This document shows positions 7,686-31,425 of a stretch of 64,000 bases of DNA, piece after piece (the first letter of the stretch is position 1; the number at the start of each line of letters is the position of its first letter). The notes beneath the pieces are model-generated. The model had not been told where the DNA came from, made no database searches, and saw nothing but the letters and a program-made list of their open reading frames with translations. Made by a program: the position numbers and the translations under genes. Location: positions 1 through 64,000 of IMG/VR virus record IMGVR_UViG_3300031576_000006; one strand, given 5' to 3'. This DNA is from a virus.

Positions 7686-7883
7686 ATGGAAAAAATATGC
7701 AATAATTGCCAACTCCCTAAAGTTCTTAATTATAGTTACACTGGTTGGCACATAGATCACAAAAAAGCTCTTGCAAATTTTGATCTTACCGATCGTGAAC
7801 AATTTTTACAAGCTATGCATTATACCAATTTACAACCTCTGTGGGCAAAAGACAATATTAGTAAATTAAATAGGATTATATAA
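7686..7883 (+). CDS. Shortened HNH endonuclease-type gene (internal deletion)
   Basis: 65 residues starting directly after the preceding stop codon. The first dozen residues (MEKICNNCQLPK) resemble the start of the 248-residue HNH protein at 23823 (MKICRTCNIEK), and the rest (WHIDHKKALANFDL, then HYTNLQPLWAKDN) matches its C-terminal HNH core. About 180 residues between these parts are missing, without a frameshift. The metal-binding His and Asn positions are kept, so a minimal nuclease domain might still fold, but the DNA-recognition part is gone. I read it as a decayed homing endonuclease. Confidence 0.75.
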   Translation: MEKICNNCQLPKVLNYSYTGWHIDHKKALANFDLTDREQFLQAMHYTNLQPLWAKDNISKLNRII

Positions 7884-9323: not shown

Positions 9324-9929
9324 ATGTATTTGATTTATATGGCTGTTAATATATTGAATGGTAAAAAATACATTGGCAAAAATAAAGGCACCGTATTTTA
9401 CCGAAAACATGAACACAAACGGGAAGCCTTGAAGAGAAACAGCCAGACTCATTTTCACAATGCAATTCGCAAATACGGTTTCGAATCTTTCAAATGGTAT
9501 CGGTTGGAGCTTTGTCTAAATAACACAGATGCGGTTAAAAGAGAGAGATTTTACATTAATATGCATGATAGCGTAAATAGTGGGTATAATTTATCATTTG
9601 GCGGTGACGGCCCTGAAGGTCACAAACAATCAGAAAAATCTCAACAAAAAAAGCGAAATTCTAATCGCGGAAATTCTAATTCATCCAGGGCAGTAATCAA
9701 TAGTTTGGGTGAAATATTTGAGTCCGTTAGTATGGCCGAGAAACAGTATAAAAATTCCAAAATTAGAGAGGTCTGCTTAGAAAAAAGAAATTCGGCTGCC
9801 GGGCTATCTTGGAAATTTTACACACTTGGAATTGAGAAACCCGAACATCCGCAGGTAAGCAGACGAACGCCCAAAAAATTACTTGAAACTTACCAACATG
9901 CTATACTTAAGCAATTTGGACAAATGTGA
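9324..9929 (+). CDS. GIY-YIG family homing endonuclease
   Basis: 201 residues. The N-terminal nuclease module is visible: LIYMAVNILNGKKYIGK (GIY and YIG strands), then H-x-x-A-I-x-K-Y-G and a downstream acidic stretch KRERFYINMHDSVNSGYNL that supplies the expected Glu. This is followed by GGDGPEG and a C-terminal DNA-binding part (INSLGEIFESVSMAEKQY) of the type found in modular intron and intergenic homing endonucleases. It lies free-standing between two structural genes, directly upstream of a late-promoter element, so it looks like an intergenic insertion. It appears intact. Confidence 0.88.
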   Translation: MYLIYMAVNILNGKKYIGKNKGTVFYRKHEHKREALKRNSQTHFHNAIRKYGFESFKWYRLELCLNNTDAVKRERFYINMHDSVNSGYNLSFGGDGPEGHKQSEKSQQKKRNSNRGNSNSSRAVINSLGEIFESVSMAEKQYKNSKIREVCLEKRNSAAGLSWKFYTLGIEKPEHPQVSRRTPKKLLETYQHAILKQFGQM

Positions 9930-20587: not shown

Positions 20588-20615
20588 CAATAGGTTGTGT
20601 TACAAACTTAATAAT
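20588..20615 (+). promoter_or_regulatory. Late-promoter-like element C
   Basis: CAATAGGTTGTG then TTACAAACTTAATAAT. Its last bases overlap the first possible ATG (20614) of the GIY-YIG gene. The natural target is presumably the tail sheath gene 400 bases downstream, with the endonuclease gene inserted between promoter and sheath. Confidence 0.72.
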
Positions 20616-21021
20616 GGGTCGTATGGTTATATACAGAATTGTAAATCAAATGAATCAAAAGTGCTATATTGGTCAAACAATTATGGAACCTAAAAAGCGA
20701 TGGAACGCACACAAATACAAGCGTGGTTCATCTGCCATACATTCTGCTATAAAAAAATACGGTATTGAAAATTTTACATTTGATATAATCGACCATACTT
20801 CGTCTTTGAATACAAAAAGTCAAATTCGTTTCTTCAAAAATTCATGCGGAGAAATTATAGAAGTATCGATCTTATCAGATTTTTGTAAAGGCTGTAATTT
20901 AACAGATTACAATATGAGGCGGGTTTTCAACGGAAAGCGCAAATCTCATAAAAATTGGACTCGCCCGTCTGATTTAGAAATAAAATTATTTTTAGAAAAT
21001 AACAGGAGTCACAATGTCTAG
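20614..21021 (+). CDS. Degenerate GIY-YIG endonuclease
   Basis: 135 residues; a start at 20626 (MVIYRIVNQ) is equally possible, because the ATG at 20614 lies within the promoter element. VIYRIVNQMNQKCYIGQT supplies the GIY and YIG strands, with HKYKRGSSAIHSAIKKYG behind them. After HTSSLNTKSQ the usual Glu-containing strand and the G-Y-N-L/GG stretch (present in the 9324 protein) are missing and the sequence jumps to a C-terminal DNA-binding-like part. So it seems to carry an internal in-frame deletion and is probably not an active nuclease. Overlaps the sheath start by eight bases. Confidence 0.72.
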   Translation: MGRMVIYRIVNQMNQKCYIGQTIMEPKKRWNAHKYKRGSSAIHSAIKKYGIENFTFDIIDHTSSLNTKSQIRFFKNSCGEIIEVSILSDFCKGCNLTDYNMRRVFNGKRKSHKNWTRPSDLEIKLFLENNRSHNV

Positions 21022-23821
21022 AACTTTTACTGATAGTAACGGAGTTACGTTAATTATCCCGGATAGTTCAGTAACCACTAACGTAGTTAGCCAGCCTACC
21101 GGTATTGCTACTACTGGAGTTATTGCTTTAGTCGGTGAGGCCGATCAAGGTTCACACTGGTCAGAAGAAGAAAAATTATCAGATAATAGCTTTGGTCCGC
21201 TCGACCTAGCGCGTGTTGTTTCTAAATACGGCTCAGGCCGACTTGTTGATGGATTCCGAGGTCTTATAGGTGCCTCATCTGGTCCAAGAATCCAAGGTTC
21301 TTTCAGTAGAGCTATTCTTGTAAAGCCTAACCTTGGCAATAAGGCTTCTAAGGCCACTGACGATGGTCACGGCACACTTAAGGCAAAATTAGCCGGTGCC
21401 CCTGGAAATAATATTAAAGAAACTATCTCTGCTGATACAGCAGAGGCCGCTCCTACTACTGGAAGCTTCTCTTATGTACCAAGTGCAAGTTCGTCTTCAT
21501 TGGCTGCCCGTGTAAACGGTGGAGCTAAGCAGACACTCGCAATATCCGCAGATCAAACACCTGCGTCTTTAGCCAGTGCCATCACCGGCTTAGCCAATCT
21601 TAATGCTGTTGGAGGAGTCGATCGAGTAATCACTTCCGGTCTTTCAATCGCAAACAGCGTTGCTGTTGCAGTAGTTTCAGGACAAAACGTAACTATTACA
21701 CTTACCGCTCCTGCAGTTTGGGGTGCTTCACCACAGGTTGGTGACACCGTTCGTATTCCACTCGGTTCTGTGATTGCCGGTGTCGCTAATGCCAACGTAG
21801 GTTGGTACTTAGTTACCGCATCATCTAACACTGCTACTCTCGCTCAGATTTCTGCAAAGAAAATCACAGCTGGTGCTCCAGTTGCCGTTTCAGCAGTTGC
21901 ATTCTCAGCTACTCCAGCAAGCGATATTGTAGATTACAGTTACATGAGAATTGACAACATGTCTGGCCGTAACAGAGATATTCTCTCTGCTTTAGTCGGT
22001 CAAAGTGCCGCTGTTACCGTAGCAGCTTCAGCCCTTACATTTACTTTGGTCGGTTCAAATGTTTTCAGCACTAAACCACGAGTCGGAGATATCGTATATA
22101 TCCCGTCAGGTTCGGCTTTCGCAGGCGCTGGTTCTGCAAACGTTGGATGGTATCAAATTACCGCTTCCAGCAATTTTGCAACTGCCGCATTCTTCACAGC
22201 TTCTCGTCTTTCTAACGGTTCACCTGTTGCCGTAGCCTCTACACCTATCGTAGCGACTACCGATATTCAAGACTACGATCGTCAGATCCGTGGTTCCGGT
22301 AAGGCATTGGAATTATATGACAACGCCGGTACTGTAAATGTTAATACAGTCCTCAAACAATTGGGTGCAGATTCTGCAGCTAGTTGGCTTGAAGTATTGA
22401 CTACCTCTTCCGCAGAACTCAAAAAACGAATTGATCTTTCTAAGCCAAATCCACTTGTTACCGAATCCTTTATTCACGGCGGAAATATCGTCCTTCAATT
22501 GGGATATAAAGGTACAACTGCAATTGCTACAGTAATCACTAGCTCTGGAATTAAAAAACTTCAAACTACCGTTACTGGTGGAGTCGGAGCCAATCTCGAT
22601 ATTACCTTGTCGAATTATAATTCAATCAGTGATTTGGTTGATTTTCTTAATCTACAGCCTGGATATAATGCAGCTGCACATTCTTCTCAAGAAGCTCAGC
22701 GCAATCCTTCTCAGGTACTTGATGAGGTTTCTGCAATCGGAATCGATTCAGATCTTTCCAATCGCCCAGGACGTATCAAAAGAGACATCTATGATATGAC
22801 TGCAGGTCTTGGAAACATCGCCCAAAATTCAGTATTAGTTACTTACGTAAATATTCTCAAAGCTGGTCTTCCGGAAGATGAAGGTCCTGCCTTCTTGTCT
22901 GGTGGAGCTAAAGGTGCGACTACTGGTTTGGCGTTTAGCCAAGCTATTGATGCATTGGCTAACGTCCGATGTAACTTCGTAGTTCCTCTTGCTAGCCGAG
23001 ACGCATCTGTTGACTCTGCTAACAATGAAACGGATGCCGCTTCAACATATACCGTTGATGCTATCAATGCCGCAGTGAAAACTCACTGTATTAATATGTC
23101 TACCCCTAAGGTTAAACGTCATCGCATTGGTTTCGTTTCTAAGAAAGGTACTTTCTCAGAAGCAAAAGCCTCTGCACAAACTATGGCGTCTTTCCGTATC
23201 GCTCACACTTTTGAAGATGCTAAGGATTTGGATAGTAATGCTAATATCTCTACCTTCCAACCTTGGATGGCTTCTTGTAAAGCTGCCGGTATGCAAGCCG
23301 CAGGATTTTACAGATCAATATTCAATAAGGCAATCAACATTTCTGGCATTGTTAATCCTTCAGGCTTTGACGATCAATCGCAGTCTCTTTGCGAAGATGC
23401 AGTTTCTGCAGGACTTCTTGTCATTCAACGTCAAGAAGATGGTACTTTTACTTTCTTGAGTGACCAATTGACTTATGGATTGGATAACAATTTCGTATAC
23501 AATTCTATTCAGGCTGTTTACGTTGCAGACATTATCTCATTGACTCTCGCCGAATCACTTAAGAAGGCTTTTGTCGGTGAATCAGTTGCTGACGTTACGC
23601 CGTCTGTTGCGATCTCATTCACCAAAGGTAAAATGGCAGAATTCTTGGATAAAAAACTCATCGTTGGAAGTTCTAAATTCCCATCTGGATGGAAAAATAT
23701 TCAAGTTACCATCGCCGATGGTGTTATGGCCGTTCGATGTGTCGTCATCGAAGCTACTTCAATTTACTTCATACCAATCAACGTTGATATCGAAGGTTTA
23801 CGTGACAGCGCAGCTGCTTAA
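21014..23821 (+). CDS. Contractile tail sheath protein
   Basis: 935 residues, longer than typical sheath proteins. N-terminal TGVIALVGEADQGSHW and GNKASKATDDGHGTLKAKLAG, then PGNNI, are sheath hallmarks. The C-terminal third (from about residue 560: DIYDMTAGLGNIAQNSVLVT, GGAKGATTGLAFSQAIDAL) is the conserved sheath core, and the end has the usual VVIEATSIYFIPINVDIEGL. Two related inserted domains occupy roughly residues 205-310 and 325-425; both contain GDxVxIPxGSxxAG and ANVGWYxxTASSN. Ribosome site ACAGGAG. Polymerises around the tail tube and contracts during infection. Downstream come an HNH gene and the tube. Confidence 0.92.
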   Translation: MSRTFTDSNGVTLIIPDSSVTTNVVSQPTGIATTGVIALVGEADQGSHWSEEEKLSDNSFGPLDLARVVSKYGSGRLVDGFRGLIGASSGPRIQGSFSRAILVKPNLGNKASKATDDGHGTLKAKLAGAPGNNIKETISADTAEAAPTTGSFSYVPSASSSSLAARVNGGAKQTLAISADQTPASLASAITGLANLNAVGGVDRVITSGLSIANSVAVAVVSGQNVTITLTAPAVWGASPQVGDTVRIPLGSVIAGVANANVGWYLVTASSNTATLAQISAKKITAGAPVAVSAVAFSATPASDIVDYSYMRIDNMSGRNRDILSALVGQSAAVTVAASALTFTLVGSNVFSTKPRVGDIVYIPSGSAFAGAGSANVGWYQITASSNFATAAFFTASRLSNGSPVAVASTPIVATTDIQDYDRQIRGSGKALELYDNAGTVNVNTVLKQLGADSAASWLEVLTTSSAELKKRIDLSKPNPLVTESFIHGGNIVLQLGYKGTTAIATVITSSGIKKLQTTVTGGVGANLDITLSNYNSISDLVDFLNLQPGYNAAAHSSQEAQRNPSQVLDEVSAIGIDSDLSNRPGRIKRDIYDMTAGLGNIAQNSVLVTYVNILKAGLPEDEGPAFLSGGAKGATTGLAFSQAIDALANVRCNFVVPLASRDASVDSANNETDAASTYTVDAINAAVKTHCINMSTPKVKRHRIGFVSKKGTFSEAKASAQTMASFRIAHTFEDAKDLDSNANISTFQPWMASCKAAGMQAAGFYRSIFNKAINISGIVNPSGFDDQSQSLCEDAVSAGLLVIQRQEDGTFTFLSDQLTYGLDNNFVYNSIQAVYVADIISLTLAESLKKAFVGESVADVTPSVAISFTKGKMAEFLDKKLIVGSSKFPSGWKNIQVTIADGVMAVRCVVIEATSIYFIPINVDIEGLRDSAAA

Positions 23822-23822
23822 T

Positions 23823-24569
23823 ATGAAGATATGTAGAACTTGCAATATCGAAAAAGATTTTCCTTGCTTTACTAAACATAAAGGCAGGAAAGATGGACAT
23901 TTGGAAATCTGCAAAGATTGTCGTAAGTTATCGCGCAAAGATAAAACATCGCCAGAAGTGAATCGGGCTAAATATCTTAAAAATAAAGAAAGATATTTGG
24001 CGAAGCAGAAAGAATACCATTTAGCCAATCGAGAAGAACGGTGCGCTAAAATGAAAGAATACAATCAACGCACCGAGTATAGCAAAAACCACTATGCGGC
24101 CAATAAAGAAATTGTGGATGCAAAATGGAAGACGTATTACGAGAAAAATAAAAAAGTATTGCAGGCTAAAAATTTGCAATACAGAAAAGAAAGACTCAAG
24201 GTTGACCCTGGCTATAGAATACTTAATTCATGTAGACGCAGGTTGCGTAGAGCATTAAAGGGCGAAAGAAAACTTTATAATTTCATGAAAAATGTAGGAT
24301 GTTCTGCGGATCAACTGAAGTCATATCTCGAATCACAGTTCCAACCAGGGATGACTTGGCAAAATTATAGCAATAGAGGATGGCACATTGATCACATTAA
24401 ACCTCTGAGCAAGTTTGACTTAACAAAAGAAGATCAATTTCATCAAGCCATCCATTACACAAATCTTCAACCGTTATGGGCTGGAGATAATTTAAAAAAA
24501 TCTAACAAATTAGTTTGTGCTAATTTATCACCGGGAGGTGATTTATCGGAAGCCCTCACGTTATATTAA
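23823..24569 (+). CDS. HNH homing endonuclease between sheath and tube genes
   Basis: 248 residues from the ATG two bases after the sheath stop; the open frame continues upstream inside the sheath gene but that is a shadow. MKICRTCNIEKDFPCF with a second C-x-x-C (CKDCRK) forms a zinc-finger-like N-terminus; a long basic helical linker follows; the C-terminus has the HNH core GWHIDHIKPLSKFDL and HYTNLQPLWAGDN. The last residues (CANLSPGGDLSEALTLY) are read from the ribosome site and start of the tube gene, so the two overlap. It is inserted precisely in the sheath-tube junction. Confidence 0.85.
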   Translation: MKICRTCNIEKDFPCFTKHKGRKDGHLEICKDCRKLSRKDKTSPEVNRAKYLKNKERYLAKQKEYHLANREERCAKMKEYNQRTEYSKNHYAANKEIVDAKWKTYYEKNKKVLQAKNLQYRKERLKVDPGYRILNSCRRRLRRALKGERKLYNFMKNVGCSADQLKSYLESQFQPGMTWQNYSNRGWHIDHIKPLSKFDLTKEDQFHQAIHYTNLQPLWAGDNLKKSNKLVCANLSPGGDLSEALTLY

Positions 24570-25012
24570 CGGGCGCTCGTGCCCAATTGATAATCGACGG
24601 TAAAATCGTCGGATTGTTTACAAGTTGTTCCTATAATATCACCTATGATGCAAATCCTGCATTTATCTTGGGACGTTACAGCGCAGCTGAAATTACTTAC
24701 ACTGCTCAAGATGTTATCTCGGTAGATGCAACTGGATTTCGCGTCATTGACGCCGGTCCACATGCCGTTGCCTCAGTTCCTAAGCTTCAAGATCTTTTGA
24801 ATCACGAAGACGTTGCATTATCATTGATAGACCGTAAAACCGGCAAGAACTTTATGACTGTCGTTGGCGTTCGCCCAATGGGATATAGTTCAAACGTGAC
24901 CGCTCGTGGCGTTGTGGAAATTTCTGCACGATTTATGGGACTTCGGGCTGAGGATGAAAGCGGCACGCAAAACGAATCTGGTGGAGCTTCATCTCTACTT
25001 AGCGGAACATAA
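24545..25012 (+). CDS. Tail tube protein with apparent ATC start
   Basis: 155 residues if started at ATC 24545. The first ordinary start is TTG 24587, but it has no ribosome site and would cut off the segment GSPHVILTGARAQLIIDGK, of which GARAxLxIDG is typical of tube proteins. The frame is open only back to a stop at 24539-24541, and the only plausible initiator after it is ATC, six bases downstream of a perfect GGAGG (24534-24538). Features of tubes: VGLFTSCSYNITYD, PAFILGRYSAAEITYT and TARGVVEISARFMGLRAEDE. Probably forms the inner tube within the sheath. Confidence 0.8.
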   Translation: MGSPHVILTGARAQLIIDGKIVGLFTSCSYNITYDANPAFILGRYSAAEITYTAQDVISVDATGFRVIDAGPHAVASVPKLQDLLNHEDVALSLIDRKTGKNFMTVVGVRPMGYSSNVTARGVVEISARFMGLRAEDESGTQNESGGASSLLSGT

Positions 25013-30042: not shown

Positions 30043-31425
30043 GTGTTAGAAAAAATTCAAGATTTAAAGAAAGCGTTAGAAGCAGGCTATCCCAGTGCCG
30101 CTCCTGGTGCTTTAACCCAAGGTGCCTCTCTTCAAGAGCCGGACCTGTCCAACATTATGAATGTTGCGACATTCCAAGACAGCGCAATTAAGTTGCAGAA
30201 AGAATTCAAAGTTGTTCCCGCTAAAGGAACTCTTGTGCAATTCAATCGCCAACTTGATTACGGTATTTTTGGGGGTTCCGCAGTACTAGAAGGTGCTGTC
30301 GGTCAAGAAGAAACCAGTAACTACGTTCGTGTGGTTGTTCCTATGGCTTACTACGTACATGTTAGACGTGTAACGTTGCAAGCTGAAATGGTATCCACAT
30401 TTGACGGTGTAAAAGCCGAAGATCGAGTTGCCGCCGATGCAGCTATTAAACTCGCTGCTGACATCGAATTTCATCTATTCCGAGGTCGCGCAAGCTACTC
30501 GAATGCTGGATTGTTCGATGGTAACCCTCTTGCCGCTGCTGATAATGAGCCGGGCATGCATGGATTGGATATGCAAATTCGTCAATCTGATGGACAAGCA
30601 AATACTCAGGATCTTATGTTGAATGAGTATGGCGCTGATAGTTCAGTTTCCATCAATCAAAACGGTATACTTGCACAATCAACCATGGAAGATATTTACA
30701 GTCGTGCCCAAATGCACAACGGTAATCCCGAAAAATTTTATCTCGATCCTTTGACTCATAGTGCATACAATAAAATTGCACATGGCAAAGAGCGTATCGT
30801 TCTTGCTGGTTCACCCCAACAAGCTACAGGCGCTCAATTGAAAGAACAATGGGTTGCTGGTGGAGCTATTTCCATCGAATCTAGCCGATTCCTTTCTGGT
30901 AAGACTGCTCCTGCACGTCCCCGATTGAACACCCCTTCTGCTCCTTCACAAACTGCCGCTGAGTTTGCTGGAACTACTAGCTTTCAAGCTGGTGAATCTT
31001 ATAGCTTTTCTTGTACTGCCGCTAACGAAGTTGGAGAATCTACTGCATCCACAGCTACTTCTCAAGCTATCAGCGTAAACGGTAACTATATTGCTGTAAC
31101 TATCACCCCTGCTGCTGGTATCGCTGCCCTTTACTTCAACGTTTACCGTTCAGTATCTGGAAGCCTCGTTAAACGCTACATTGGTCGTGTTAAGAATTCT
31201 GGCGCAGCCACTACTATTTTCACCGATCTTAATGGTCGTTCCCCTGCATTCGTCACTGGCTTTGCCCTTGATATGCGTGGAATCGAAATGAACGAACTTA
31301 GCCCATTTAAACAAGCTGAGTTGGCAAAAACCGATCTTAGTACTCCAAAAGCGTATTACAGATTCTGTTCTTTGGCAGTTAAACTTCCTCGCTTCAACAT
31401 CCTTGTTGATAACTTGAGCCAGTAA
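30043..31425 (+). CDS. Major capsid protein
   Basis: 460 residues, GTG start with AAGGAGAATGCC in front. It has the layout of HK97-fold capsid proteins of large myoviruses: an N-terminal KKALEAGYPSAAPGALTQGA segment, then LVQFNRQLDYGIFGGSAVLE, VRRVTLQAEMVST, AADIEFHLFRGR, and a C-terminal KAYYRFCSLAVKLPRFNILV. Residues about 297-400 (SAPSQTAAEFAGTTSFQAGE to the TDLNGRSP region) form an Ig/fibronectin-like insertion that would project on the capsid surface. The N-terminal segment recurs in the protein at the left edge of the window. A terminator follows. Confidence 0.88.
   Translation: MLEKIQDLKKALEAGYPSAAPGALTQGASLQEPDLSNIMNVATFQDSAIKLQKEFKVVPAKGTLVQFNRQLDYGIFGGSAVLEGAVGQEETSNYVRVVVPMAYYVHVRRVTLQAEMVSTFDGVKAEDRVAADAAIKLAADIEFHLFRGRASYSNAGLFDGNPLAAADNEPGMHGLDMQIRQSDGQANTQDLMLNEYGADSSVSINQNGILAQSTMEDIYSRAQMHNGNPEKFYLDPLTHSAYNKIAHGKERIVLAGSPQQATGAQLKEQWVAGGAISIESSRFLSGKTAPARPRLNTPSAPSQTAAEFAGTTSFQAGESYSFSCTAANEVGESTASTATSQAISVNGNYIAVTITPAAGIAALYFNVYRSVSGSLVKRYIGRVKNSGAATTIFTDLNGRSPAFVTGFALDMRGIEMNELSPFKQAELAKTDLSTPKAYYRFCSLAVKLPRFNILVDNLSQ

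Follow-up and report, generated by a model that had tools for sequence, protein, structure and literature searches.

A phage tail tube gene probably translated from an AUC codon where a homing-endonuclease-like gene has taken the place of its native start region

In the stretch of viral DNA analyzed here (positions 1 to 64,000 of IMG/VR record IMGVR_UViG_3300031576_000006, hereafter the window; the whole virus record has 116,231 bases), the tail tube gene is probably translated from AUC, a very rare start codon, at 24545..24547 with the help of an extended Shine-Dalgarno (SD) sequence, after a cassette carrying an HNH homing endonuclease gene replaced the native ribosome-binding site and ATG. 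We put the probability of this reading at roughly 0.82. What we observe and build on is the anatomy of the start region, the change from ATG to ATC relative to HNH-free kin, the equivalent junction of a second phage, and the conservation of codons 2-14. The sheath, HNH, and tube features described below all lie on the + strand.

The gene (24545..25012, 155 aa) is a genuine tail tube gene, as judged from a profile match, its sheath neighbor, and its fold. Its family profile matches the PDB entry 8q01 "Tail tube protein" (E 8.5e-07), and a Foldseek search with a model of pLDDT 63.5 matched the tube chains of phage 812 (E 3.4e-06) as well as the tube chains of related tails; a deeper model built from 48 rows was poorer (pLDDT 47) and was left unused. 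The gene also lies directly 3' of the tail sheath gene, as expected of a contractile-tail tube. A second tube-like gene, 32% identical, is present elsewhere in the same virus record (G000:C1:83078-83497), and a scan of genome contigs for tube relatives found none.

Read directly, the sequence runs from GGAGG (24534-24538) through a TGA that closes the tube frame upstream (24539..24541), TTT, and ATC (24545-24547), continues with GGA AGC CCT CAC GTT ATA TTA ACG GGC GCT CGT GCC CAA to a TTG at 24587..24589, and stays open in the tube frame up to a TAA at 25010-25012. No conventional start codon precedes that TTG, codon 15, in this frame, and the earliest ATG comes only at codon 104. A sequence-only reading had proposed that the frame is open only back to the TGA and that ATC 24545, placed after GGAGG, is the sole plausible initiator, and both points are confirmed. 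When 17 collinear window genes were compared with those of one relative, the other 16 started with ATG or GTG and no frame breaks were seen. We found no tRNA genes within the window, and thus no phage-borne odd initiator tRNA there. The major capsid gene at window position 30043 has a GTG start behind AAGGAG, in the window as in the relative G002.

The SD sequence is longer than the GGAGG first recognized. The segment GGGAGGUGAU (GGGAGGTGAT) at 24533..24542 would form 10 pairs with the 16S 3' tail, with a duplex energy of -16.9 kcal/mol computed on the assumption that the host has the common 16S tail. This is the strongest predicted SD among 91 mechanically called window genes (next -13.3, median -7.3), a comparison that is conservative because the starts of the other genes were picked partly for good SDs. 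The spacing between GGAGG and ATC is 6 nt. Pairing reaches -11.7 in L055, the second phage with an ATC start, and lies mostly between -6.4 and -9.5 in relatives with ATG, two of which reach -11.6 and -11.7. By its sequence, then, with no AUG, GUG, or UUG at the conserved position and with properly spaced pairing, the tube gene would belong to the class of AUN starts accompanied by extended SDs.

RNA folding predicts two hairpins around this site. One, AAATTAG..CTAATTT, lies just upstream of the SD (24507..24526), and the other, AUCACC-GGGA-GGUGAU (24527..24542, -7.3 kcal/mol), holds the SD in its 3' arm and loop; together they have a z of -4.1 against shuffled sequences. Opening the region from -12 to +3 costs about 8.5 kcal/mol in the window versus 2-6 in relatives. 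We saw no clear equivalent of the SD-covering hairpin in L055, and it was dropped as part of the general mechanism and is now regarded as specific to the window.

Upstream lies the tail sheath gene (21014..23821, 935 aa, stop TAA 23819-23821), which matches PHROG 279 tail sheath (E 6.6e-26) and has an orthologue in every relative checked. One nucleotide past the sheath stop begins an HNH homing-endonuclease-like gene (23823..24569, 248 aa), without an SD of its own (energy -0.5) and with its last 25 nt inside the tube gene. Its product matches PHROG 1035 "endonuclease VII" (E 4.7e-17), has relatives in 111 phage records, and contains a readable HNH-type motif (HIDH..NLQPLW..DNLKKSNK); a Pfam search gave no match for it. 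Homologues align to residues ~1-231, and a paralogue at 7686-7883 stops at the matching place, leaving a C-terminal run-on of ~17 codons (24517..24569) that extends beyond the end of the homologues and overlaps the tube start in another frame. The gene is patchily present at a fixed site, occurring in the window and, as a remnant, in L055, and being absent from L004, L005, L021, and others. The motif and homologues, together with this distribution, mark it as a candidate homing endonuclease whose cleavage and copying activities are putative.

Other genes of this kind occur in the window. The 65-aa HNH gene at 7686-7883 has zero gap to both flanking genes; in the relative G002 (L029), which lacks it, the stop and ATG of the flanking genes are directly adjacent. 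Where the ATG of the next gene would be, the window has the endonuclease ATG, and that next gene begins at a new ATG. Two GIY-YIG-like genes (9324-9929 and 20614-21021) are packed against structural genes, and the latter overlaps the start of the sheath gene, which is still ATG.

A survey of relatives places the ATC in context. Searching viral contigs with a profile yielded 80 loci, and 59 junctions were left once duplicate proteins and six rows that were distant or aligned poorly had been taken out; these include the window and Myxococcus phage Mx1, and all but Mx1 are metagenome assemblies. The tube gene starts with ATG at every one of the 51 non-redundant junctions that have no endonuclease gene. 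At the eight with an endonuclease or a remnant, the start is ATG in five, TTG in one (L103), and ATC in two (the window and L055), an association between start codon and endonuclease (Fisher p 0.0017) that is only indicative since the rows are related. Because five of these eight junctions keep ATG, we rejected a general rule by which every inserted endonuclease would weaken the start that follows it. The sheath-tube junction looks like an insertion hot spot. GIY-YIG-like genes are found there in L094, L104, L113, and L117, all of which keep ATG, and in L103 (same contig as L010), with its TTG; the endonuclease leader of L010 resembles the tube leader of Mx1, a likeness we judged ambiguous.

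Comparison with HNH-free relatives had been proposed as a check in the sequence-only reading, and it favors the ATC start: these relatives carry ATG at exactly the same codon. In the closest of them, L004, which is 90% identical, AGGAGATAATA ATG GGT AGC stands against GGAGGTGATTT ATC GGA AGC in the window. The native leader and SD that lie between the sheath stop and the tube ATG are missing in the window, and the HNH gene is there instead. The earlier description of an HNH gene immediately upstream and overlapping the tube start holds, except that "replaced" describes the event better than "inserted". On a tree, the neighbors of the window are L004 and L005, and those of L055 are L021 and others; every one of these neighbors is HNH-free and has ATG, and the combined HNH-ATC state requires at least two changes.

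The second ATC phage, L055 (IMGVR_UViG_3300037349_000377), comes from a different metagenome and has a tube 61% identical to that of the window. Its sheath-tube gap of 134 nt contains a degraded HNH remnant, MKYCKLCESNLDLTAFGKHK, that matches the window HNH protein with E 3e-05 in a single comparison; the first 24 residues match the HNH N terminus, and ENMKKSNKV corresponds to the C-terminal DNLKKSNKL of the window protein. The gap ends in CAGGAGGTAAGTT ATC GGA ACT, with the ATC at L055 3001-3003 and a TAA at the place equivalent to the window's TGA. Nineteen of the last 23 junction bases match those of the window, and the HNH DNA matches moderately outside the junction. No ATG, GTG, or TTG occurs in the first 67 of the 155 codons of the L055 tube, the first being codon 68, and the whole frame is conserved. 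These likenesses in sequence suggest that the window and L055 likely carry the same cassette. The idea that the HNH gene altered the original start region gains support from this second case, in which a similar remnant at the same place is followed by ATC in a nearly identical context.

We propose that an HNH homing-endonuclease cassette displaced the short leader that once separated the sheath stop from tube codon 2, so that the sheath stop is now followed by the ATG of the cassette itself, and that the cassette's 3' end may carry a new SD and AUC, leaving the tube gene rewired instead of broken. The AUC at 24545 would be read as formyl-methionine by the initiator tRNA, and the extended SD would help loading and offset the weak codon; in the window phage, ribosomes finishing the HNH gene may open the SD hairpin. 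Against an AUC start stand two points. The protein yield from AUC is normally much lower than from AUG, an odd feature for a subunit required in many copies, and the window SD is also folded into a hairpin that is costlier to open than in relatives. A broader proposal, for which we see about even chances, is that the cassette brings along a ready-made initiation site, an extended SD with AUC, for the essential gene whose start it takes over, and that it can pass from phage to phage without being lethal; a weak AUC may also alter the cleavage site or restrain tube synthesis, and the SD-AUC would outlive a decayed endonuclease, as in L055.

How the AUC arose is the point on which the closest alternative differs. 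In this variant, whose probability overlaps that of our main reading, the AUC is the start, and ATG changed to ATC by later mutation in each lineage; we regard this as unlikely, if the most serious competitor. A single G-to-C change would be enough, and most tube genes behind GIY-YIG elements at this junction still have ATG, so that insertion alone requires no change of start. On the other hand, the window and L055 share 19 of 23 junction bases and not the codon alone, and the native leader has been replaced in the same way in both phages. Arrival of the ATC with the cassette therefore seems the better account to us.

Far less probable is a sequencing or assembly error at a true ATG. HNH-free relatives do have ATG, and the window derives from a single metagenome assembly for which an exact search found no second contig of the same species. 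Yet L055, a divergent phage from another metagenome, has ATC at the same codon and in the same context, making an error unlikely; moreover, the other collinear genes checked have no frame break, and the strongest SD of the window precedes this very codon.

The ATG of HNH-free relatives together with the ATC of L055 argues not only against error but also against a start at TTG 24587, which we consider slightly less probable still. That TTG, as the first conventional start codon in frame, would give a protein of 141 aa, but its SD is weak (-4.7), and in L055 no conventional start codon comes ahead of codon 68. A TTG start would also remove G10, R12, and A13, which are invariant or nearly invariant in the tube, and would cut a predicted strand (residues 11-17 in a low-confidence model, the first beta strand) that spans codon 15. 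Finally, codons 2-14 are constrained at the protein level. Between the window and L004 they show 10 synonymous and no nonsynonymous codon changes, third positions accounting for 10 of the 11 base changes, and between L055 and L050 seven synonymous and no nonsynonymous changes. With L005 as outgroup, about six of the codon changes fall, by eye, on the window branch, although some of them may predate the loss of ATG. Such synonymous-only change indicates that the part before TTG 24587 is protein-coding in the window lineage.

Two further explanations are very improbable. A -1 ribosomal slip from the HNH frame into the tube frame would yield an HNH-tube fusion, and the two frames do overlap (24542-24569) in the right relative frame; however, reading of the overlap revealed no classical slippery heptamer, an extra 248 aa on a tube subunit would be implausible, and such frameshifting is impossible in L055 because the frames of its HNH remnant end ahead of the point where the tube frame opens. 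The weakest is a self-splicing intron around the HNH gene that joins the tube to an upstream ATG, as HNH genes often are intron-borne and joining 23825 to 24548 would yield ATG GGA AGC, but the HNH ORF fills nearly the whole insert, no Rfam group I/II match was found in 23600-24750 with the E limit relaxed to 5 (nor any intron or known RNA over the whole window), and the 134-nt insert of L055 is too short for such an intron, which rules out splicing there.

If our main reading is true, an AUC start with a strong enough SD can serve even a structural gene that should require high expression, and a free-standing homing endonuclease can occupy the start of an essential gene without destroying it. 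There is also a practical consequence: common gene finders, which accept only ATG, GTG, and TTG, would shorten the window tube, starting it at TTG 24587, and nearly lose that of L055, starting it at codon 68. The motif GGAGGTNANTTATCGG offers a concrete means of searching for further ATC starts. Besides L055, a scan of viral contigs for it returned two ORFs that are closed just upstream and lack conventional starts near their beginning, both with strong SDs by construction because the SD was part of the search pattern. One, a tape-measure-like gene in the unrelated phage contig L146, encodes at least 367 aa, and its relative L180 has an ATG within one residue of the position of the ATC; the other is an 80-aa ORF in L136. 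In L146 the apparent ATC start lies on the minus strand (6891 of the reverse complement); it follows GGAGGTGAC, and there is no endonuclease in its neighborhood.

Both ATC starts and extended SDs have precedents, and in the literature searched, our coverage of which is partial, we found no paper on a homing endonuclease that re-supplies a neighbor with a non-canonical start, or a structural gene with both elements. The T4 gene 60 and mobA bypass cassette is a case in which a host gene survives homing-endonuclease insertion by unusual decoding; there the unusual step is bypassing in elongation, whereas for the window tube it would be initiation. Among bacterial genes, infC, encoding translation factor IF3, starts with ATC in Streptomyces (PMC5472188), ATT in E. 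coli, and AUA in S. aureus (PMC5472188, PMC13009471). It resembles the tube gene in its non-canonical AUN start, accompanied in S. aureus by an extended SD (PMC13009471), but it is a regulatory gene of the host and governs its own expression by discriminating among start codons, while the tube gene is structural, belongs to a phage, and has a homing endonuclease as its neighbor. In S. aureus, AUU and AUA starts are accompanied by extended SDs and reach about 10% of the expression obtained with AUG; cvfC1 (AUU) and ccpN (AUA) likewise combine a weak start codon with an extended SD (PMC13009471), though they are bacterial, have no mobile element, and are not many-copy structural proteins. Free-standing homing endonucleases of T4-like phages (mobE, segC, mobA, and others) show overlapping neighbors, translational coupling, and hairpins that hide ribosome-binding sites (PMC2988022). 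Like the HNH gene of the window, these ORFs abut or overlap their neighbors (PMC2988022), but in T4-like phages the hairpin or overlap controls the endonuclease, whereas in the window the altered start is that of the downstream host gene.
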